Origin: Wenyingzhuangia fucanilytica | GTDB taxonomy: Bacteria; Bacteroidota; Bacteroidia; Flavobacteriales; Flavobacteriaceae | Direction: 5' to 3' | Assembly: GCF_001697185.1 (NCBI RefSeq) | Contig: NZ_CP014224.1 | Span: 1,984,001 to 2,048,000 of the forward strand | Length of the DNA: 64,000 nt | Shown: piece after piece, positions 8,713 to 64,000 of the stretch | How the letters are laid out: each line of letters begins with the position of its first letter | Position numbering within the stretch: the stretch's first letter is position 1 | Notes under the pieces: model-generated | Databases searched by the model: none | What the model saw: only the letters and a program-made list of their open reading frames with translations | What the model was told of the DNA's origin: nothing | Made by a program: the position numbers and the translations under genes

Positions 8713-10122
8713 TTAATTAACCAAAGGCTTTAACTCTTCTCTAAACTTTTTTAAAACTTCTTTGTTTTTTGAATCTTTAGCAATATTGTTCCACTCCATT
8801 GGATCATTTTTATGATCGTACAATTCTTCAAAACCATCAGCATATACTATATATCTATAATTTTCACTTCTTAAAGTATAGTTTCCTTCTCCTTTTGAGG
8901 TTAAAGCTGAGTGGTTCCATTTTCCTTTAGGATTGGTTACCAAATGTGCAAAACTGTTTCCATCTAAATCTGTTTTATTAGGCAAACCACACATTTCTAA
9001 CAAGGTTGGATATACATCTATTAAAGAAACCGTTCTAATACTTTCTCCTTGAGTACCATTAAAAGGATTGTATACAATTAAAGGAGTTTTAGTAGCTTCT
9101 TCCCAAAGTGTTTGTTTAGACCAGTGCTCTTTTTCTCCTAAGTGCCAACCATGATCTCCCATTAGTACCACAATGGTATTGTTTTTATATTCGCTATTTT
9201 CTAATTGGTTTAATACATTCCCCACACAAGCATCTGCATAGGCCAAACAAGCCAAATATGCCTTTACTACAGATTTCCAATTATTGGTTCTTAAAATTTC
9301 ATGATGTAATTTACTAGCAGCCCAATTGCTCCCTATTTTTCCTACATCTTCTAAATCATTTTTTAAAACTTTAGGAAGTTGAATAGTTTCTTCATCAAAC
9401 ATATCAAAATACTTTTGTGGAGCATATAAAGGCAAGTGAGGTCTAAAAATTCCACAAGCTAAAAAGAAAGGCTTGTTGTGTTTTTGTTTTAAAAAACGAG
9501 CCGCATAATCTGATGATTTCCAATCGTGTGTTTTTTCATCTTTTATATCAATCCCTAGCCAATCAAATGATTTTGTTTTACTTCCTTTCACACCAGCTCC
9601 TTTAAAATCAATTCCATGTTGAAGACGTAATTCCTTTGCAGGATATTGACATCCTAAACCACCTTTGTGTTCTTGTTGAAAAGAACCTGGATCACTACCA
9701 GGTTTAGGTGTTGGCTTGGTACCTCTTGGGCTGTGAAAAATTTTACCAGCTGCTGCTGTTTTATACCCATTAGCAGCAAAATATTGTGGTAATGTAATCG
9801 TATTTTCAAATCCTTTTTGTTCTCTAAAATTTTCTTCATTACCATGAACTCCCGTTTTAAAAGGTTGATAACCTGTTAACATACTCGTTCTTGATGGGTT
9901 ACACAATGCAGCAGAACAATAAGCTTGTTTAAATACAGTACTTTTTTTTGCTAAAGCATCCATATTAGGAGTAATAGCTTGCGGATGACCTCCGTATGCA
10001 CCAATCCAATCATTCATATCATCTACCATAATTAACAAAACATTAGGTTTAGATGATTGACTATATCCTGAAATTGTAACAAACAATACAAGAATTTTAA
10101 TTATACTTTTATAGATTTTCAT
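8713..10122 (-). CDS. S1-family sulfatase (iduronate-2-sulfatase-like, S1_7 type)
   Basis: 469 aa, signal peptide of about 21 residues. Metal motif LLIMVDDMNDWIGAYGGHP; formylglycine site C74 in AALCNPSRTSMLTGYQP; then KIFHSPRG and GDHGWHLGEKEHWSKQT, which are typical of the iduronate-2-sulfatase-like branch. This branch (S1_7) occurs in carrageenan loci of flavobacteria, as I recall. Periplasmic; removes one specific sulfate from an oligosaccharide. It begins a tight gene string (15 bases to the next sulfatase). A 149-base gap with a dyad separates it from the sulfatase gene upstream. Confidence 0.92.
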   Translation of the reverse strand: MKIYKSIIKILVLFVTISGYSQSSKPNVLLIMVDDMNDWIGAYGGHPQAITPNMDALAKKSTVFKQAYCSAALCNPSRTSMLTGYQPFKTGVHGNEENFREQKGFENTITLPQYFAANGYKTAAAGKIFHSPRGTKPTPKPGSDPGSFQQEHKGGLGCQYPAKELRLQHGIDFKGAGVKGSKTKSFDWLGIDIKDEKTHDWKSSDYAARFLKQKHNKPFFLACGIFRPHLPLYAPQKYFDMFDEETIQLPKVLKNDLEDVGKIGSNWAASKLHHEILRTNNWKSVVKAYLACLAYADACVGNVLNQLENSEYKNNTIVVLMGDHGWHLGEKEHWSKQTLWEEATKTPLIVYNPFNGTQGESIRTVSLIDVYPTLLEMCGLPNKTDLDGNSFAHLVTNPKGKWNHSALTSKGEGNYTLRSENYRYIVYADGFEELYDHKNDPMEWNNIAKDSKNKEVLKKFREELKPLVN

Positions 10123-10217
10123 AATTTATACTTTTGCTTATAACGAAGAAAAACAAATCCTTTTAATAAAATATATCTGTGAGTTAAACAGATGTCTTTG
10201 TAAATATTTTTCACCAC

Positions 10218-10244
10218 AAATCCAGCTCTTATTTTGCTGGATTT
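10218..10244. repeat. Short inverted repeat between two sulfatase genes
   Basis: Nine-base perfect arms (AAATCCAGC and GCTGGATTT) around a nine-base loop, in the 149-base gap between two sulfatase genes. On the transcribed minus strand no clear U-run follows, so it is not a classical terminator; it may be an mRNA processing or attenuation hairpin that sets the ratio of the two sulfatases. Confidence 0.5.
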
Positions 10245-10271
10245 AATGTTTGACTGGAAAAAAGCTCTTTT

Positions 10272-11774
10272 TTAATTTTTTAAAACTGAATTTGGAGGCA
10301 ATGGTACTTGGTTCTCTTTTCTCCATGCTACCAATTCGTTTAACATTTTTTTAGCTTGTCTGCTATTACTAATAGCAATATTATTAGCTTCTTTAGGATC
10401 TTTTTCTAAATTATATAGTTCTACTTTTCCTGTTGCCAAATACTGAATTAATTTATAATCATCTTTTCTAATGACTGAACAAGCTTTTTGTTTGTTATTA
10501 TTACTAGCTAAGTGCCAAAAAAGTGGTCTTTTCTCAAATTTCTTATCATCTTTTTTAAACAAAGGAACTAGAGAATTTCCATCTAACACATCTTTAAAAC
10601 CATGAATATTAGCGACCTCTAAAAATGTTGGAAAGAAATCTAATAAAGTAATTGGTGCCAAACTTCTTCTTGCTTTAATACTCCCTGGCCAACTAATTAA
10701 ACCTGGTACACGAATTCCTCCTTCGTAAACCTCTCTTTTAGAACCACGCATTAAATTATTTCTACTTTCACCTCCGTTGTATCCGTTGTCAGAAGTTACG
10801 ATAATGATTGTGTTTTCTCTTAAATTATTTTGATCTAAATAGGTTACAATACGTTTAATATTTTCATCAACAGACTCAATCATTGTTGCGTAGCCTGCCA
10901 TGACCTCACGCCTTTTTCCTAATCCTTGACCAGTAATAGAATCTCCAGGTTTATTGATATATTTTTCAAACAATTCATCATTTCTATTCTTAATAGGTTT
11001 ATGAACTGCATAATAGTCTAGATTCACAAAAAAAGGCCCATCCTCTTTTTGCTCATCCATAAACTCAATAGCTTCATCTGTCAATCTATCTGTTAACCAT
11101 TCATCGGTAGGTTTATTAATAATAAATGGATTGCTAAATGGAGCCCTGTAACCTCCTTTATAACTTTTATAGCCTCCAAACTCAAAAGCAGGATCTCCTT
11201 TATAGGTTCCTCCTACATTTTTTATAAAACCACGTCCTTGTGGGTAATATTGTAAAACTTCTTTGGTTTTGTGCTCTGCCAACCAACAATAGTCTCCTGG
11301 TTCAGGTTGATCTAATTTTTCTTTAAAAGGATATGGTAAATTCAACTCTTTATTAGGATAAGGCCCTACAATATGATATTTACCGATATGAATAGCTTTG
11401 TAACCATTTTCAGACAATGGTTCTGCATAAATTTTATGATCTTTTGTTACCGTCCATCTAGAAAAAATATTTTCATCTGCAGTACCTTGTTCTAACACAG
11501 GAACATTATACACCCCTGTTCTAAATGATTGTTGTCCTGTAAACAAAGCTGTTCTTGATGGCGAACAAGTAGGATACATATACGCGTTTTCAAACACCAA
11601 ACTTTCTTTAGCTAATGCATCTAAACCAGGAGTTTCATAATAAGTAGACCCGTTAAAACCGACATCTGCATACCCTAAATCATCTACCATTATAAATACA
11701 ATATTGGGCTTTTTTTGAGAAAATCCTTTTATTGTAAAAACTAAAATAGCAACACATAAAACCTTAAACTTCAT
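10272..11774 (-). CDS. S1-family sulfatase
   Basis: 500 aa, Sec signal peptide (about 19 residues). FIMVDDLGYADVGFNGSTYY is the first metal motif; C70 in YPTCSPSRTALFTGQQ is the formylglycine cysteine. VTSDNGYNGGESRNN and LMRGSKREVYEGGIRVPGLI are the later metal and sulfate motifs. The insertion at about 120-200 (rich in Tyr/Gly) is longer than in the neighbouring arylsulfatase-like enzyme and may define the substrate pocket. Periplasmic by signal. Gaps of 149 bases on one side and 112 on the other suggest that expression may be adjusted here rather than strictly cotranslated. Confidence 0.92.
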   Translation of the reverse strand: MKFKVLCVAILVFTIKGFSQKKPNIVFIMVDDLGYADVGFNGSTYYETPGLDALAKESLVFENAYMYPTCSPSRTALFTGQQSFRTGVYNVPVLEQGTADENIFSRWTVTKDHKIYAEPLSENGYKAIHIGKYHIVGPYPNKELNLPYPFKEKLDQPEPGDYCWLAEHKTKEVLQYYPQGRGFIKNVGGTYKGDPAFEFGGYKSYKGGYRAPFSNPFIINKPTDEWLTDRLTDEAIEFMDEQKEDGPFFVNLDYYAVHKPIKNRNDELFEKYINKPGDSITGQGLGKRREVMAGYATMIESVDENIKRIVTYLDQNNLRENTIIIVTSDNGYNGGESRNNLMRGSKREVYEGGIRVPGLISWPGSIKARRSLAPITLLDFFPTFLEVANIHGFKDVLDGNSLVPLFKKDDKKFEKRPLFWHLASNNNKQKACSVIRKDDYKLIQYLATGKVELYNLEKDPKEANNIAISNSRQAKKMLNELVAWRKENQVPLPPNSVLKN

Positions 11775-11886
11775 CTTTATTCATCTTTTATAATTCTATC
11801 AGATAAAATTAAACAGAGGTCAATAATTATATGTAGTTCTAAGTCTATATGATGTATCTCTTATTATATTTACTGATATAAGATGA

Positions 11887-12771
11887 TTATTTAAGAAGCA
11901 AAATCAATTCTTTTGCCATTGCAGTACCTAATCGTTTTTGTCCTTCGGTATTGTAATGTAAATTATCCGAATGTTTTGGATAATCACTCCAAGAAGAATC
12001 TCTAGATGTTTTTACAATCCCTGTATTTTTATCTTGATTAGCCACTTCTTCCATTGCTTTTCTTACCAAGTCTGGACCTTCTTTATATTTTCTAGACAAC
12101 GGATTTACCTCACCGATAACAAAAGGCATTTGTGGCATTTCTAAAGAGGTTCTGCATCCTTTTATTAAAGCAGTAAGATTTTCTTTATAACTTTTTGCTG
12201 TTATTTCTTTATTTGTATCTCCTTCACCTTGCATCCAAACCATTCCAAGAATTTTGTATGGTTTTCCTTCAGCTTTCAATCTTTTTAAATCGTTTTGAAC
12301 ATGTGTTAAATGAGCTTCATACAATTTCATGGCTTTTCGCTCCGCTCCTCTTTCTGCCAGATTTGCTTTTTCTTGACTCCAATTAGGATTCCAAGCTCCG
12401 TACAAAGAAGTTCCTCCAACAGCTGTCTTAATCAATAAAAATTCTTGATTAGGAAACTTTTCTGCCAGTGTTAAACCAATCATTATTTCTGGCCCAAAAT
12501 GTTTTGTAAACTTATATTTTTCAGGTTGATTGGTAGACACAAAATAAGACAACGGTCGTGCTGCTACATTTGGATTGTTAGAAGTACTTAACAAAACCCT
12601 ATTGGCAATTTTTTCTATTCTTTGTTGAACAGAAACCTCTAAAGCTTCATAATTTCCATGTCCTTGCATATTAGATTGTCCTGCTAACAAGACTACTTGT
12701 ACTTCTTTTTTTTGAGCAAAACAAAGTGCGCAAAACAAAGAACAAATCAGAATAATTTTATTTTTATACAT
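11887..12771 (-). CDS. SASA/SGNH carbohydrate esterase (paralog A)
   Basis: 294 aa, Sec signal peptide (cleavage near residue 19). The compact single-domain SASA type: VVLLAGQSNMQGHG with the nucleophile serine, GGTSLYGAWNPNW, MVWMQGEGD, and the C-terminal SDNLHYNTEGQKRLG, which carries the triad Asp/His. It looks like a paralog of the gene 3 bases upstream and was probably formed by tandem duplication. Such proteins (CE6-like or acetylxylan-esterase-like) remove O-acetyl groups from polysaccharides. In this sulfated galactan locus the acyl substrate is unknown. Confidence 0.88.
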   Translation of the reverse strand: MYKNKIILICSLFCALCFAQKKEVQVVLLAGQSNMQGHGNYEALEVSVQQRIEKIANRVLLSTSNNPNVAARPLSYFVSTNQPEKYKFTKHFGPEIMIGLTLAEKFPNQEFLLIKTAVGGTSLYGAWNPNWSQEKANLAERGAERKAMKLYEAHLTHVQNDLKRLKAEGKPYKILGMVWMQGEGDTNKEITAKSYKENLTALIKGCRTSLEMPQMPFVIGEVNPLSRKYKEGPDLVRKAMEEVANQDKNTGIVKTSRDSSWSDYPKHSDNLHYNTEGQKRLGTAMAKELILLLK

Positions 12772-12774
12772 CTT

Positions 12775-13650
12775 TTAATTTTGTAGTGATATAATTTCTT
12801 TAGCAAAAGCAGTTCCTAAACGTTTTTGTCCTTCTGCGTTGTAATGTACATTGTCTGGGTTTTTAGGATAATCGCTCCAAGAAGTATCTGTTGATGTTTT
12901 TATAATTCCAACATGATTATCTTCACTAGCAACGGTTTCCATGGCTGCTCTAACTCTAGCAGCTCCGTTTTTAACACCATATCTTGAGTTAATCTGTCCT
13001 ATCACAAAAGGCATGTTTTTAACATCAAATTCATTTCTGTATTTCGCTATCAACTTTTTTAAAGTGGTTGCATAAGTATCAGCAGAAACATCTAAAACAG
13101 CATCATTTTCTCCTTGCATCCATGCCATTCCAATGATTTTGTAAGTTTGACCACTAGCCTCCAATGCTTTTAAATTTTTATGAATAGCAGTGATGTGCAT
13201 TTTATTTAGATCTAACTTTTGCTTAAATCCTTTTTCTATTTGTTGTGCTTTTTCTACAGACCACTCAGGATTCCATGCTCCATACAAAACAGTCCCTCCT
13301 TGTGCTTTTTTAATCAATAAAAATTGTTGATCTGGATATGCTTCTGCCAAAGTCAATCCAATAAATAATTCTGGACCAAAACTTTTAGTATATGGAAACT
13401 TTTTACTTGGTTTAATGGTATTGTAAGAAAGTGGCTTTGCTTCTTTTCCGTGATTGCTATACAATACCCTATCTTTAATTTTATCTATTCTTGCACGAAC
13501 AGCTTCGTCTAATTCTTCATAATTCCCATTCCCTGCCATGTTAGATTGTCCTGCAAGCAAAACTACTTGTACTTCTTTTTTTTGTGCATGGCCTAAACCA
13601 AAGGCTCCTAATATACAAATCACTAAAATTTTAATTCCTATTTTTTTCAT
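12775..13650 (-). CDS. SASA/SGNH carbohydrate esterase (paralog B)
   Basis: 291 aa when begun at the ATG at 13650, which places the signal peptide MKKIGIKILVICILGAFGLG at the very N-terminus. A longer frame begins at a TTG at 13671, but that codon lies inside a promoter -7 match, so I prefer 13650. Motifs: VVLLAGQSNMAGNG (serine nucleophile), GGTVLYGAWNPEW, MAWMQGENDA, PDNVHYNAEGQKRLG (Asp/His). It looks closely similar to the next gene, which follows after 3 bases. First gene of the operon that runs to the left end, because a terminator lies just upstream. Confidence 0.88.
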   Translation of the reverse strand: MKKIGIKILVICILGAFGLGHAQKKEVQVVLLAGQSNMAGNGNYEELDEAVRARIDKIKDRVLYSNHGKEAKPLSYNTIKPSKKFPYTKSFGPELFIGLTLAEAYPDQQFLLIKKAQGGTVLYGAWNPEWSVEKAQQIEKGFKQKLDLNKMHITAIHKNLKALEASGQTYKIIGMAWMQGENDAVLDVSADTYATTLKKLIAKYRNEFDVKNMPFVIGQINSRYGVKNGAARVRAAMETVASEDNHVGIIKTSTDTSWSDYPKNPDNVHYNAEGQKRLGTAFAKEIISLQN

Positions 13651-53644: not shown

Positions 53645-54103
53645 GCTTTAATTTGTTTTACAGCATATCAAATTAATACAACCTTTAAAATACAAATGTC
53701 TTTCATGGTATATCATATGTTCCTCACAATAATAAAAGGATTACTTTTTAATTAATGTGATAAGATTAGAATCCAAAACAATATGTTATTGATAGGTGAA
53801 ATATACAGTATTCTAAAATTTCAGAAATATACTCCATAAAACAACGTTTGTAACGATAGTCTACACAAAGTTAGCTCAATGGTATCATTTAGTAAAAAAC
53901 CTAGATTTAAAGCATTCAATACAGTTTCCTATACAATATATCTAAACGAGATATCCAACTTATTTTTTTAATAATAGATGTACCGATATTTATTTAAAAT
54001 CTTTTAATGCTAAAAAAGTTTTTAGAGTTCAATTCAGAAGTGTGAAAAATTTAGAATTCTTTCTCGGATCAATCACAAAAGTTGTGTTTTAATATAAAAT
54101 AAA
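53645..54103. other. 459-base gene-free region at the PUL boundary
   Basis: AT-rich, with frequent stops in all frames. It contains the second copy of CATATCAAATTAAT at 53664-53677 and an exact minus-strand TAnnTTTG (TAACTTTG) at 53866-53873, so it probably holds the promoter of the right-most PUL transcript. Nothing else is recognisable. Confidence 0.6.
53664..53677 (-). promoter_or_regulatory. Repeated 14-base promoter-like motif (copy 2)
   Basis: Exact second copy of CATATCAAATTAAT, 20 bases upstream of the propeller-enzyme start. The shared sequence before both adjacent enzyme genes suggests a common promoter or operator. Confidence 0.35.
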
Positions 54104-54131
54104 AAAGCTCTCAAATTTCTTTGAGAGCTTT
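54104..54131 (-). terminator. Terminator behind the tRNA 3'-end fragment
   Basis: AAAGCTCTCAAA and TTTGAGAGCTTT pair around a short loop, with a run of T on the minus strand. It directly follows the tRNA 3' end on that strand, as a native tRNA terminator would. Confidence 0.85.
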
Positions 54132-54133
54132 CG

Positions 54134-54155
54134 CGGTCTGGACGGGACTCGAACC
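54134..54155 (-). other. tRNA 3'-end fragment (probably tRNA-Asp), candidate attachment site
   Basis: On the minus strand GGTTCGAGTCCCGTCCAGACCG is a T-loop, the 3' strand of the T-stem, the 3' acceptor strand (CCAGACC) and discriminator G. The bases that should form the 5' side of the T-stem (AATGG) do not pair, and no D- or anticodon arm lies upstream. So only the 3' end is present. G73 and the acceptor sequence fit tRNA-Asp, by memory. Such a partial copy is the usual scar of an element integrated at a tRNA gene; the native terminator on the left implies the element extends to the right. Confidence 0.7.
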
Positions 54156-57774: not shown

Positions 57775-58011
57775 TTACCTTTTTATTATTCTATAATCAA
57801 ACCTAATTCTAATTAGATCAATTAACTCTTTATCATCAATATCTACTTCATTAAAATTATTAGAAGGAAAAGTAAAATTAGAATAGAATGGATAAACTGT
57901 ATTTTGTTTAAGTACCTTGAAAGGATCTATTTTATTTTTACTTTTTGGTATAGTAATAAAACGTTTTTTTTCTGCTCCTGTTTTTAATGCTATTAGCTTA
58001 AATCCTTTCAA
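57775..58011 (-). CDS. Small ORF behind the PHP-ATPase gene, possible gene remnant
   Basis: 78 codons. The only start in frame is a TTG at 58011 (a stop precedes it), so translation is uncertain. It follows the PHP-ATPase gene by 11 bases on the same strand. Content: KGFKLIALKTGAEKKRFITI, then KVLKQNTVYPFYSNFTF and DDKELIDLIRIRFDYRIIKR. The first 40 residues remind me of the N-termini of some AAA ATPases of defence systems, so this could be the broken front part of another gene, cut by the high-GC region. Equally, it may be a small real fourth gene of the operon. Confidence 0.4.
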   Translation of the reverse strand: MKGFKLIALKTGAEKKRFITIPKSKNKIDPFKVLKQNTVYPFYSNFTFPSNNFNEVDIDDKELIDLIRIRFDYRIIKR

Positions 58012-58022
58012 ATATACTTAAA

Positions 58023-60812
58023 TTAAACTAATTTATATCTATCAGAACGCATTTTGAAAGCTTTTTCACTTCCTTCCATGACATCACAAATCTCTTTTTT
58101 AATCTCTTCTATTTCTACTGTACCAGAATGTAAAACAGATGTATGTTGACTTTCTGAATCCATTGAAATAATATATTCTGCATCACCATTTACAGGAATA
58201 TTTGCATTATGAGTTACTACAATAATTTGCCTACTTCGTTTAGCTATTTTTAATCTATCTACTATTAAATCGTAGACTAATCTATTATCTAAATCATCTT
58301 CTGGTTGGTCTAATATTAATGGGATTGTTCCAAAAGATAATAAGAAAGTTAGAATTGCAGTAGTACGTTGTCCTGCAGAAGCAGTAGATAACGATTTAAA
58401 CGTAACAGCATTTTCAGGTTTATATTCTACAACCACTTCATCCTCTGGCATAAATAACTCTAATTCATCCATACCTGCATCCGTTATACCTTTGACAGCA
58501 TTCTTAAAATGACCACCAACTACATCAGCATTATCATCAAAGTAATTTTTGCGGAATACCTTTTTTACTTCTTCTATTTTCTGTTCTACGTTACCTTGGA
58601 AACATAACTCTTTTAACTTTTTAAAATCTTCTTCAAAAGAAGTGTCTTTACCAATAATCTTACGGACTTGTAACTCGAAACTTGTTTGACTTCTGAAAGG
58701 TTTAATTTTTACTCTAATTTTCCCATCAGTTACATTTTCATCAATAAATGCCTTACGTTTTACAGTTATATCTTTAGATAATTGAATAAATTCTTCCTGA
58801 TATTTGGCTCTTTCTACAAGTTCTAAACGTTCTTTCTCTTTTATAATATCGAGAGCAACTAATTCTTCTTCCTTAGTTTCAATCTCTTTTGTAATAGCTT
58901 CGTATTGATCTATGTTTTCAACACCTTCTGCTTCAAGTTCAGCTTTCTTTACATCATAATTAGTTAATGCTGTAGTATATGCCTGCTTCCATTGTGAGGA
59001 TGTTAGTTTAGTTTCTAAATCAGTTTTTATCTGTGATATTGATGTTATTAGTGCTTCATACTCCGTTGCTTTTGTAGATAGAGCTTCTTTTACCTCAGTT
59101 AAGATTATTTTAAGTTCTTCTCTATTACTTTCAGAAAAACCAGTTTCATCTGGTTGTTCAATATCAAACTCTGTTTTTAGCCCCTCTAATTGATTAACTA
59201 ATACTTGAATTTGTTCTTTATAATCGTTTAGTAATTTCTCTTCTTCAGCAAATGACTTTTTTTCTGCCATTAACTCTTTTATTCCTGCCTTATCTAAAGT
59301 TTCTAATTTCTTTTTTAAGTCCTCAATGTCAGTTTTTAATTTAAGTCTTGATTTTAAACTTACTTGATGTGTTCTAATCGTAATACAAGACTTTAAGAAG
59401 TTTTCTTTTGCAACCTTTCTTTTATCTTTTAATTGACCTATTTCTTCAACATTCAAATCAACCCTATCTAACAAGGCGTTGTGGTCTTTTGAAATTTCAA
59501 ATATTTGCTTTTGAGAATATTGCTCAAACTCTAAGAAGTTTAAAAACTCTTCTTCCTCAATTTTCTCCCAATTTCCATCAACTAACTTATTAATCTCTAT
59601 AGTTTGATTGACAGAGCTTACTATTTCAGATGCTATTACACGATATAAAAAGTCTTTACGAACAAATTCTACTTCAATGGTAGATACATCATTAAATACA
59701 CCTACAGACTCTGTTCCTTTTACTTCATTCGTTTTATAGAAACTATTATGCTCTTTTACTAAATCAGCAAAATTTTCAAGATTACTCGTACGGTTAAATA
59801 CACCTCTAATAAATCTTAAAATGCTTGATTTACCACTACCTCGACCACCAATTATTGTATTTAATTGTGGATTAAATCCTATTTTAAAAGGCACTGTTCC
59901 TGTTAACGTAGTATTAGTTATGGTTATTGATTTTATCCAAAATTCAGGTTTATTTGTTGTAGAAGTTGCATCAACAAAATCATTAACTATTCTATGAGAT
60001 GGCAATAAAAATGCTTGCCTTAACCCTTCTAAAGAAGGCGTTTCGTCCATTTTTATATAAGTGAATCTTGAACCAATACCGTTTAAACCGTGTATAGAGT
60101 TTTTAGGTTCGTGTGGATTATCCGAAAAAGTTAATAACGCTAAATCACTTTCCTTAGATAGCTTTACTGTATTATACCACTTCTTAGCTGTAGCTTCATC
60201 TATTGCAGGTGTAGGATTATTGTAAAAATCATTTAAACTTGGAACAACACTACCGATTGTTGCATTAGAATATTCCTTTTCATAAAATGCTTTATGTACA
60301 ATTTGAACTGCATTTATATCTTCTCTACTGTAGAACTCTTGTAAAATTTGATTACCAATAGCCTCTAAACCATTAAATTCGTCAATGTGAGCAGGAATAA
60401 TAATAGCACCATATTTTAAAGCCATATCTGCTATTTCAATTATACTTTTATTTGTTTTAGCATCTTGATTACCAAAATTAGCTTCATCTATATCACATCT
60501 TATTAAGAAATCACGAACATCAGTATTTGTTTTGGTTGGGTCAAATAATACTAATAAATGAACCTTAGATGTATCACAAGTAATTTCAACACCAGGAAAG
60601 ATGGTTAAATTAGTGTTTTTAGCTATTTCTTGAATTGCTTCAATACCATTTGCACTATTGTGGTCAGTAACCGCAACACAATCTAGACCCTGTTCTATAG
60701 CTTTGTCAACCCATTGTTGAGCTGTTACCTCTCTATCTTGAAAACACCTACTTGCTGTTGTATGTAAATGTAAATCGCACTTATACCACCTTGCTCCTTT
60801 AAAATCGTTCAT
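58023..60812 (-). CDS. PHP-phosphoesterase/SMC-like ATPase fusion (TrlF-like)
   Basis: 929 aa, ATG start, cytoplasmic. PHP domain at about 8-280: KCDLHLHTTAS (H15, H17), AVTDHNSANG, FPGVEIT, IIPAHIDEFNG and FSDNPHEP, the metal-binding histidines and aspartates of a phosphoesterase or nuclease. ATPase head: Walker A GGRGSGKSS (322-330), coiled coil at about 440-690, signature-like STASAGQR (809-816), Walker B LILDQPEDD (832-840), then VVTHNANIP. PHP-SMC fusions of this type (annotated TrlF-like in databases, as I recall) occur in defence islands. It follows the helicase-nuclease gene by 14 bases, so it is part of one operon. Confidence 0.85.
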   Translation of the reverse strand: MNDFKGARWYKCDLHLHTTASRCFQDREVTAQQWVDKAIEQGLDCVAVTDHNSANGIEAIQEIAKNTNLTIFPGVEITCDTSKVHLLVLFDPTKTNTDVRDFLIRCDIDEANFGNQDAKTNKSIIEIADMALKYGAIIIPAHIDEFNGLEAIGNQILQEFYSREDINAVQIVHKAFYEKEYSNATIGSVVPSLNDFYNNPTPAIDEATAKKWYNTVKLSKESDLALLTFSDNPHEPKNSIHGLNGIGSRFTYIKMDETPSLEGLRQAFLLPSHRIVNDFVDATSTTNKPEFWIKSITITNTTLTGTVPFKIGFNPQLNTIIGGRGSGKSSILRFIRGVFNRTSNLENFADLVKEHNSFYKTNEVKGTESVGVFNDVSTIEVEFVRKDFLYRVIASEIVSSVNQTIEINKLVDGNWEKIEEEEFLNFLEFEQYSQKQIFEISKDHNALLDRVDLNVEEIGQLKDKRKVAKENFLKSCITIRTHQVSLKSRLKLKTDIEDLKKKLETLDKAGIKELMAEKKSFAEEEKLLNDYKEQIQVLVNQLEGLKTEFDIEQPDETGFSESNREELKIILTEVKEALSTKATEYEALITSISQIKTDLETKLTSSQWKQAYTTALTNYDVKKAELEAEGVENIDQYEAITKEIETKEEELVALDIIKEKERLELVERAKYQEEFIQLSKDITVKRKAFIDENVTDGKIRVKIKPFRSQTSFELQVRKIIGKDTSFEEDFKKLKELCFQGNVEQKIEEVKKVFRKNYFDDNADVVGGHFKNAVKGITDAGMDELELFMPEDEVVVEYKPENAVTFKSLSTASAGQRTTAILTFLLSFGTIPLILDQPEDDLDNRLVYDLIVDRLKIAKRSRQIIVVTHNANIPVNGDAEYIISMDSESQHTSVLHSGTVEIEEIKKEICDVMEGSEKAFKMRSDRYKLV

Positions 60813-60826
60813 AGCTTTTTTTGATT

Positions 60827-63430
60827 TTATAGTTTATTTAATTTTTCAACAAAAACATCTTCTCTGTTAGCTTTGTTGTAGAATGGCATACCAATCAATT
60901 TATATTGTTGACTTTCGTATAATTCTATAACTGCTTCCTTTTCTATTTCTTGAAGGAATTGTTCTTTCCATTCATCATTGTATAATAAATGATCTCCTTT
61001 AGGTTCTATGAACAATTGATATATGACTTCATCATCTGATTTTTTTTCTGTCATGTATAATACAAAGTCTGGTTCTGTTGCCTTTGCATCGCTAAATCTG
61101 TATAGCTTGAAAAACCGTTCGTTTCTTAACAAATATATATTTGTAAACTTTTCCTTTAAATCATCTATGTTATCATGGAAATATTTCACTAAAAACTTTT
61201 CTTCTGACGAACCATAGTTTTCATTATAAGCATACCAATCTGCTTTATTTAAATCTACAAAATATTCTTGTGGAATATCATTACGCATTGTTGGTTTTCC
61301 TGTTTCTGCTGTTGTATTTGTGTTAACAGAAAATGATAGTTTTTTATTTTTAAAATACTTTCTTAATGGTTCTCTATAAAAGGATTTTGTACCTCTATAA
61401 TCACCAAACTTGGTTGATATTTCATTAGCAATTTTGGTTGCTACACTTATAACAATTTCTAATTTTTGATGTGATGATAAATTATTAGTGTCTTTTTGTA
61501 AACCAGTAACTTCTACTATTATACCACCAAAATAATTTTCATTAGTTATAAAATCATGCATTGATTTAATACTAGGAAAAAACTGTTTTAAGTTGCTAAA
61601 CTTATAAAAAGGTATTTTATTCAATCCTTTTTGAATAATGGTTTTATCCCAAATAGAAAAATGGTGTTTGTTAGCAAAATTTGCTTGAACTTTATTTTGT
61701 TTTACAGATGTATTATCTAGTATAGTAGTAGAAGCAGAACGATTTGTTCTTAATGCATACGTATGTTTTTTTACAATTGTTGGTTCTTGAAATTCTAATA
61801 ATGTTTTAGGATTGTTTTTTACTTTCTTATTTAAGAAAATAAATCCATTTTTATAAAGGGATGTTTCTTTAAATTCATCTTTTAAAATTAAATCTACTTC
61901 TACTTTTTCTTCAGGAAACATTCCTATTTGACGAAGTGCATTGTTTAATTCTGTAATATAACGTGGATTGTGTGAACAATGATAATGTAAGGTTTCACAA
62001 TGACGCATGATATTGTCTAAATCATTGTCGTATTTACGTTTGTCTAACTCTTGATTTTCTTCTAATTGAAAAGGATAATATCTTGCCCCTCTACCAATTA
62101 ATTGTGCTTCTGCTACTGTTGTTTTACCAGGTGTACTCCCTTTGGCATCACGAGTATCATATAATCTTACAATATCATACAGGTTTAGGACATCCCAACC
62201 CTCGTTTAATTTATCTACTGCAAAAACTGCCCTGTATTCATTACTATTATCTTCAAGACTGTTTATTACTATTTGTTTATCATCTGTATCATTTTTAGAG
62301 TTTACAGATATTATTTTATCTTCTGAAAAGTCTTCCTTTATTTCATCTATTAAACCTTGAAGTGAAATATTAAGTTCTTTAAAATATGTTATTGCTTTAT
62401 CTAAAATTTCATTATCTAACTTAATTAAGTCTTCTAATTTAGTTACGGTTAAGTTTTTAATTTCATCAATAAAAGCTTTTTCCATTTCTGCACTCTCAAT
62501 AGTAGTTTTAGATTTAAACATTACTACTGGTTTTGCTAAAATACCTTTAGATGCAAATATTTTCTTTTTGAATTGACTAATTAACACTGCAACAACAGCA
62601 CGTTGTATAGGTTGATAATCTACTTGATTTGTTTGTACTTCTTTAGAATATCCATCTTCTCTAAACTTTGCTAATGAATAATCATATAATAATTTATTAG
62701 CATATTTAGAAGCTATACTTGGATGACTTAATTCTAATGTAGCAGTAAACTCCATCATTATATTTTCTGGACTTGCTAATAAAATACGTTCTACTGTGTG
62801 TTCCCAACTTGTCAAATTTTCTTTTTCACTAGCTGAGTGCTTCTTTTTGGTTAACGCATTGATATGGTGAGCTTCATCACTTATTAGCACCGTTTTTCTA
62901 TCTATAAAATCATCAAAAGTTATACTGTTTTCACGTGGTGCATTAAGTTTTTTATGTAAGCCTTGTATGGTAGAAAATAATATACTAATATCATCTGTAT
63001 TGGTACTTTCAAAACTATCTACTTCTGTAATATTTACATTTACACCCTCTATATTTATTTGTTCTTTAAATAAATACTTAGAGCTATTTGCATTTAAAAA
63101 ATTCTCTTTTGTTTTACGTATAATAGTATCTGTGTTAACAAAGAAAATAAAATTACGATAACCTAGTTTATACAATTCTAAAATAGCACCTGCCATTACC
63201 AATGTTTTACCAGAACCAGTTGCCATATGAAACAACACTTGTGTAGGTTTAGCTCTTAAACGTGGGTTGTTTAAGTAGTAATTGAACGCTGTAAATGCTT
63301 CTATTTGATAAGGTCTAGGAGTAAACTTTAGGTTGTTTTTTATAATTGGTGATAATTCTACAACTAAATCTCCATCTTCTATTTTACTTGCAATACGCTT
63401 GTCTAGTCTTGTTATGCCTTTTTCAATCAT
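60827..63430 (-). CDS. DEAH-box helicase with C-terminal PD-(D/E)xK nuclease (type III restriction Res-like)
   Basis: 867 aa. Superfamily 2 helicase: Walker A MATGSGKT (69-76), DEAH in LISDEAHH (185-188), VDKLNEGWDVLNL and AQLIGRGARYYPF (motifs V and VI). Residues about 700-867 end in a nuclease-like part with D788 in EPDFVLYM and E809-x-K811 in LFIEPKGDH, a D...ExK motif as in type III Res subunits. No methyltransferase gene is near, so modification-based self-protection is not evident. It overlaps the upstream 187-aa gene by 4 bases (ATGA-type), indicating translational coupling. Likely cuts or unwinds invading DNA together with its neighbours. Confidence 0.88.
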   Translation of the reverse strand: MIEKGITRLDKRIASKIEDGDLVVELSPIIKNNLKFTPRPYQIEAFTAFNYYLNNPRLRAKPTQVLFHMATGSGKTLVMAGAILELYKLGYRNFIFFVNTDTIIRKTKENFLNANSSKYLFKEQINIEGVNVNITEVDSFESTNTDDISILFSTIQGLHKKLNAPRENSITFDDFIDRKTVLISDEAHHINALTKKKHSASEKENLTSWEHTVERILLASPENIMMEFTATLELSHPSIASKYANKLLYDYSLAKFREDGYSKEVQTNQVDYQPIQRAVVAVLISQFKKKIFASKGILAKPVVMFKSKTTIESAEMEKAFIDEIKNLTVTKLEDLIKLDNEILDKAITYFKELNISLQGLIDEIKEDFSEDKIISVNSKNDTDDKQIVINSLEDNSNEYRAVFAVDKLNEGWDVLNLYDIVRLYDTRDAKGSTPGKTTVAEAQLIGRGARYYPFQLEENQELDKRKYDNDLDNIMRHCETLHYHCSHNPRYITELNNALRQIGMFPEEKVEVDLILKDEFKETSLYKNGFIFLNKKVKNNPKTLLEFQEPTIVKKHTYALRTNRSASTTILDNTSVKQNKVQANFANKHHFSIWDKTIIQKGLNKIPFYKFSNLKQFFPSIKSMHDFITNENYFGGIIVEVTGLQKDTNNLSSHQKLEIVISVATKIANEISTKFGDYRGTKSFYREPLRKYFKNKKLSFSVNTNTTAETGKPTMRNDIPQEYFVDLNKADWYAYNENYGSSEEKFLVKYFHDNIDDLKEKFTNIYLLRNERFFKLYRFSDAKATEPDFVLYMTEKKSDDEVIYQLFIEPKGDHLLYNDEWKEQFLQEIEKEAVIELYESQQYKLIGMPFYNKANREDVFVEKLNKL

Positions 63431-63990
63431 AGTATCTGGCTTGATATAGGTTTGTAATGTTTTGATAATTCAGTTAAATAATTATCAATTTGGCTAACTG
63501 TACCAAATCTTGTTTTTTCACCTGCTTTAATTATTTTACACTCATTAATAACATCTGTAGTTATAGAACCAACTATTATTAATTTTTTTAGAGATTCTAT
63601 GTTTTTAATATCACTAACGATGTAATATACAAGAATCATAAAATCTTTACCCTCTTTAGAAGCCTGAACAACTGGATACATAAAAACCCAATTTTGATTA
63701 GGTTTTTTTGCCGTATAAGCTGTCTTTACGTCACAATAAAGAGTTTTGTTATTTATTTCAATTTTTATATCCCATTTGTCATAAAAATACTCCTTCACCA
63801 AAGAGCTACTTTCCGAAGAATAATCATTTGACTCAATAATTTCTATAATTCTTTTTATGTCGTGATTCTTTTCCCAACTAGAAACTTTAACGTTATTAAA
63901 ACTATTTAAAAAATAATCTGAAATTACTGCTTCTGTAACATATCCTATAAAAGAATCGTGACCAACTATTGTAAATTTATCAAAATTCAT
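63427..63990 (-). CDS. Putative restriction-endonuclease-fold protein of the defence operon
   Basis: 187 aa, ATG at 63990, ten bases from the window edge, so upstream genes may be missing. SFIGYVTEAVISDYF, then DKWDIKIEINNKTLYCDVKT with D74 and D87-V-K89 spaced as in a PD-(D/E)xK nuclease core, and a following beta strand (FMILVYYIVS). No signal or membrane span. Its last 4 bases overlap the helicase gene. Most likely a target-recognising or cutting subunit. I do not recognise a named family. Confidence 0.65.
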   Translation of the reverse strand: MNFDKFTIVGHDSFIGYVTEAVISDYFLNSFNNVKVSSWEKNHDIKRIIEIIESNDYSSESSSLVKEYFYDKWDIKIEINNKTLYCDVKTAYTAKKPNQNWVFMYPVVQASKEGKDFMILVYYIVSDIKNIESLKKLIIVGSITTDVINECKIIKAGEKTRFGTVSQIDNYLTELSKHYKPISSQIL

Positions 63991-64000
63991 ATTTACTTTT

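Follow-up and report, generated by a model that had tools for sequence, protein, structure and literature searches.

A type III restriction-modification operon with two accessory genes, X and trlF, in Wenyingzhuangia fucanilytica, and comparative evidence that TrlF changes restriction partners

The DNA analysed here, referred to as the window, is a stretch of 64,000 bases (G000:C1:1984001-2048000) within the 3.43-Mb single-contig genome of Wenyingzhuangia fucanilytica. Near its right-hand end three open reading frames lie on the minus strand. These are trlF (58023-60812, 929 aa by ORF translation), res (60827-63430, 867 aa, likewise) and a small REase-like gene, here called X, which extends from 63427 to 64000, where the window edge cuts it. 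The genes res and X overlap by four bases (63427-63430) and 14 bases (60813-60826) separate trlF from res, as an earlier sequence-only reading of the window had stated; its claim that they form one operon is supported. The flanking genome sequence adds a further minus-strand gene, mod, which begins 76 bases past the window end (64076-65920 in numbering continued from the window; G000:C1:2048076-2049920; L003:2076-3920), overlaps X by 14 bases and encodes a 614-aa type III methyltransferase. It is near certain that mod, X, res and trlF constitute a type III restriction-modification operon.

The sequence-only reading had proposed a three-gene set without a methyltransferase, in something other than a standard restriction-modification layout. 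The three genes are real, but the operon has a fourth, outside the window, and it went unseen because the window edge cuts the operon. With mod present in the flanking sequence, an operon lacking a methyltransferase is ruled out, and Mod and Res make up a type III pair. That reading had itself named a methyltransferase just beyond 64000 and a match to a known restriction system as evidence that would overturn it, and this is largely what the locus holds. Its nuclease, helicase and PHP-SMC assignments are borne out, as are the individual residues it cited (the Walker lysine K75 in Res and H15/H17 in the PHP motif), and a role in defence is supported by the type III genes and by the family membership of TrlF.

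In profile searches Mod matches Pfam N6_N4_Mtase (1.2e-51) and TypeIII_RM_meth (1.3e-24) as well as PADLOC MTase_III (8e-184), and its sequence matches in the PDB include EcoP15I Mod and other type III Mods. Both the type III domain and the N6-adenine methyltransferase motifs are present. Res matches ResIII (4.6e-30) and, across nearly its full length (residues 27-864), PADLOC REase_III (1.4e-139). It has the SF2 helicase motifs GSGKT (K75), DEAH (185-188), TATL and GRGAR, followed by a C-terminal nuclease motif, D788...E809-P-K811. The locus thus resembles systems of the EcoP1I/EcoP15I kind in having a Mod with a type III N-terminal domain and N6-adenine motifs, a Res with a ResIII helicase and a C-terminal PD-(D/E)XK motif, and mod and res genes that are adjacent and co-directional. 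It differs in the small gene X between mod and res and in the TrlF gene appended behind res. The kind of operon is already known; these two accessory genes are its unusual part. Since Mod and Res belong to a well-known family and their motifs are intact, Mod would be expected, by analogy with known type III enzymes, to methylate an asymmetric site and the Mod-Res complex to cut unmodified incoming DNA. Relatives of Res occur in 14 of 397 genomes of the family (our own genome included) and also on plasmids.

Gene X is present as the sequence-only reading claimed, but the start it chose, the in-window ATG at 63990 (187 aa), is very probably too short. The open frame runs on past the window edge, and the start is probably the ATG at 64089, giving 220 aa, because two remote relatives carry a similar N-terminal extension; in both, about 48-54 residues precede the conserved glutamate helix, as in the 220-aa form. 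The protein has a PD-(D/E)XK-like motif, E53...D107-x12-D120-V-K122, whose spacing is common to the two remote relatives, with D/I variation at one position. The predicted structure model was too poor for a fold search. X gave no profile match and no sequence match in the PDB, and no close relatives were found in plasmids, viral contigs or 395 Bacteroidota genomes. When 397 genomes were scanned with a three-row profile, nothing came up beyond the three copies already known. On these two results we reject the idea that X is a widespread family. X is a rare small protein and, from its sequence, a candidate PD-(D/E)XK nuclease; as a further putative nuclease of this type it may assist cutting.

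On sequence evidence the operon lies in a tRNA-Asp integrative element of about 21.8 kb. A 23-base copy of the 3' end of tRNA-Asp marks its left border (54133-54155, no strand assigned), a second copy marks the right border (75879-75901 in continued numbering) and a tyrosine integrase gene (74411-75658, continued numbering) sits beside the tRNA-Asp. This arrangement, with an integrase next to a tRNA and a repeat of the tRNA 3' end at the opposite border, is the pattern expected of a tRNA-targeted element. When sister genomes were searched for the unoccupied integration site, just short or partial matches came up. With the integrases of related islands this one shares only about 30% identity; TrlF has therefore also passed from one element to another. 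The 91 bases at the left border (window 54066-54155) recur with 96% identity at G000:C1:1178243-1178333, which may mark the end of a further element.

TrlF is a full-length member of NCBIfam NF045780, scoring 643 bits against a curated cut-off of 350, with residues 5-927 aligned to profile positions 1-944. The metal site of its PHP domain (H15, H17, D50, H51, E76, H142, D231) and its ABC ATPase motifs (Walker A K328, Walker B D835) are invariant or nearly so across 29 relatives. The protein combines a PHP nuclease domain with an SMC/Rad50-like ATPase that has a coiled coil. In an AlphaFold model built from 19 relatives (pLDDT 78, pTM 0.58) the PHP domain is N-terminal and long helices divide the SMC/Rad50-type head. 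Foldseek placed Wadjet JetABC, Mre11-Rad50 and further SMC heads at the top of the PDB matches, with RNase AM and PolC for the PHP part; whole-chain TM-scores were low, so only the domain-level fold match is used. On this model TrlF is an SMC-type ATPase combined with a PHP phosphoesterase. In one genome (G020) the trlF gene is seemingly split into two ORFs (L037:8905-11016 and 11115-11735), probably a decayed copy.

A defence role for TrlF is indicated by its family annotation and by its relation to the anti-phage protein Ppl. The two share a related PHP domain and ABC ATPase across the C-terminal two thirds. They are only distantly related, however, and Ppl is a solitary gene whereas TrlF here stands behind res; TrlF scores 345.9 bits against the Ppl profile, whose curated equivalog cut-off is 1000, which rules it out as a member of Ppl. 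TrlF of the Photorhabdus Temperature Restricting Locus belongs to the same NF045780 family, but it adjoins trlR and the RecG-like trlG and was studied for growth temperature, whereas our trlF lies behind type III restriction-modification genes (PMC7554251). The Photorhabdus TrlF had no phenotype of its own, and type I methyltransferase genes lie inside the Temperature Restricting Locus on Yersinia ruckeri plasmid pYR3 (PMC7554251). We found no description of the TrlF-restriction link as a general pattern in the openly licensed literature; on TrlF, Ppl, PHP-SMC proteins and PHP domains in restriction, this literature offers just the Photorhabdus paper and a single brief mention of Ppl. No TrlF was found in viral contigs with the patterns used.

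A sequence scan of about 85,000 species genomes yielded 28 near-full-length relatives of TrlF. Linkage was counted by reading the loci of 25 TrlF lineages with enough upstream sequence (ours included, two identical rows taken once, short-contig loci left out); the counts that follow describe relatives of this TrlF only and carry no matched random-gene control. In nine of the 25 (ours, L039-L043, L047, L053 and L057) type III mod-res genes are directly upstream and co-directional, with TrlF directly behind res in our locus and in the eight others. Because seven of these belong to a single close clade, the TrlF tree requires a minimum of three changes of the type III label rather than nine. Type I genes occur within about 4 kb in four of the 25 lineages (L048, L049, L050, L061), and a type IV GmrSD gene lies downstream of TrlF in two (L052, L062). 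The large neighbours in L048 and L064 are not HsdR; that of L048 is a TonB-dependent receptor, and that of L064 clusters with it. TrlF adjoins an Eco57I/MmeI-like type IIG enzyme in one genome of our own family (G022). Outside Bacteroidota, TrlF proteins 27-30% identical to ours are found on E. coli F-like plasmids, where TrlF follows a type I-like HsdR and an HsdM/S pair, and on Klebsiella/Raoultella plasmids, where it adjoins a cytosine methylase and a type II endonuclease. Of the TrlF relatives examined, about half lack a restriction-modification gene nearby, which implies that TrlF can act without one.

Comparison within the close clade amounts to a natural swap experiment: TrlF stays almost unchanged while the restriction enzymes in front of it have hardly any sequence in common. 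Between our TrlF and the TrlF proteins of the other six members identity is 84-89%; our Res is 19-20% identical to theirs, which are 87-98% identical among themselves, and our Mod is 30-34% identical to their Mods. In all six comparisons DNA homology starts at window position 60813, one base before the TrlF start codon. A second pair, L050 and L053, behaves similarly. Their trlF genes have 85.5% DNA identity over 9988-12806 in both loci, with homology that begins 13 bases ahead of the ATG and ends 10 bases past the stop, and one TrlF follows a type I HsdR while the other follows a type III Res. These comparisons of gene sequences show that TrlF moves as an accessory and switches from one restriction partner to another, the breakpoints falling at the ends of its own gene or close to them.

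Downstream of trlF the locus has been altered by loss. In relatives an intact pair of PtuA-like ATPase and HNH genes sits behind TrlF. Compared with the nearest relative, L040, homology in our locus extends about 200 bases into the ATPase gene and resumes only at the very end of the HNH gene, from which it follows that our copy lost the pair by deletion. The scar (57777 to 58011, minus strand) joins roughly the first 200 bases of a PtuA/PDC-M62A-like ATPase gene, whose start codon is now TTG, to the 3'-terminal bases of a PDC-M62B HNH gene. The span given in the sequence-only reading does contain trlF, but its portion from about 57775 to 58022 is this scar of the neighbouring pair and lies outside the gene.

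We propose that the type III mod-X-res-trlF operon on the tRNA-Asp element couples restriction to TrlF as a second-line effector that senses a common DNA state, with X assisting; taken as a whole, we place this at a little under even odds (about 0.45). TrlF would be a nuclease effector that tolerates unrelated restriction partners. Its SMC/Rad50-like ATPase would sense a DNA state common to all restriction systems, either cut ends or replicating DNA that escapes cutting, and sensing would license the PHP domain to degrade nucleic acid. That TrlF is functionally coupled to restriction at all is the part towards which we lean, by a narrow balance. If it is so tied, the trigger must be generic, unlike that of a guard relying on contact with one enzyme. 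The partner proteins are unconserved and we infer that a trigger at the level of DNA fits better than a dedicated protein contact; we hold this only tentatively. The broadest form of the idea, that TrlF is a general-purpose restriction guard, a one-gene module that sits behind type I, II, IIG or III systems and fires on a common signal (foreign DNA ends or restriction failure) through its SMC-like sensor and PHP nuclease, is doubtful.

A serious rival, which we regard as somewhat unlikely, is that co-location is all there is. TrlF would then be a self-contained anti-phage gene, like Ppl, which uses the transcription of defence operons and is uncoupled from restriction. Ppl, annotated as an anti-phage protein that stands alone, is related to TrlF in sequence, many TrlF genes lie away from restriction-modification genes, and AbiD, pAgo and OLD-type genes are also found in the slots of mod-res operons. 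At L086, where the type III Res is 84% identical to ours, an AbiD/Abi_2 gene (L086:6502-7449) has its place between mod and res. L087 has an X-like gene in that position and, directly after res, a prokaryotic Argonaute of 687 aa (PADLOC pAgo, 4.6e-265), giving mod-X'-res-pAgo. The slot around res holds a TOPRIM protein and a helicase on a Streptococcus plasmid and a 1612-aa AAA protein on a Chryseobacterium plasmid. With so many unrelated defence genes in these slots, TrlF may be one cargo among them. Against this, the link recurs across distant TrlF lineages and with types I, II, IIG and III, and the same Res subfamily is followed more than once by another family of PHP-ABC proteins. This is PDC-M49A, a PADLOC candidate of about 670 aa, whose gene lies directly behind a type III res in L095 (10146-12158, 974 bits) and in the same order in L096. 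Like TrlF it combines PHP with an ABC ATPase, but it is a separate family, against which our TrlF scores just 47 bits; it is a second PHP-ABC family linked to type III restriction. The slot contents fit both readings: the slot may take in any defence gene as cargo, or PHP-ABC proteins may have been favoured there repeatedly.

TrlF might instead be a DNA end-processor, a one-chain Mre11-Rad50-like machine that degrades the ends made by restriction and so finishes off cut phage DNA. In agreement with this, Wadjet JetABC, Mre11-Rad50 and SMC heads lead the fold matches, among which the PHP region of the DNA polymerase PolC also appears, and a double-strand break is the one product common to partners of every type. 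The PHP domain is nevertheless nearest, by sequence and by fold, to the RNA exonuclease RNase AM (7ug9), and solitary copies of TrlF exist; we consider this reading unlikely. A PrrC-like guard, in which Mod-Res holds TrlF inactive by contact until release by a phage anti-restriction protein lets it arrest the cell, has precedents in PrrC, which occurs within type Ic loci and is described as a guardian of restriction-modification (PMC12707154), and in RloC, 8 of 72 cases of which lie at type I or III loci (PMC2610378), and the last place in the operon would suit an appended guard, but it is very unlikely, since nearly the same TrlF stands behind Res proteins 19-20% identical and behind both type I and type III enzymes, leaving little room for a conserved interface, and TrlF has a PHP domain in place of an anticodon nuclease domain. 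PrrC and RloC do resemble TrlF in joining an ABC ATPase to a nuclease, in their linkage to type I or III systems and in their similar place in the sequence of defence; they differ in that the effector of TrlF is a metal-dependent PHP phosphoesterase and that its type of partner is not fixed. The natural E. coli plasmid versions, in which a type I system is paired with TrlF, make the relation between TrlF and restriction testable in a laboratory strain.

The element carries other genes beside the operon. A 712-aa protein (L003:7268-9406; 69268-71406 in window numbering) joins a region of GHKL-type ATPase to a C-terminal nuclease region that is HSDR_N-like; its Pfam matches are weak and it has no PADLOC match. 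It is possibly another defence gene. Just upstream of the operon are genes for UmuC-like, UmuD-like and SRAP (SOS peptidase) proteins (L003:4618-7143; 66618-69143 in window numbering). A TrlF locus on a Klebsiella/Raoultella plasmid (L103) also has umuD and a Y-family polymerase nearby.
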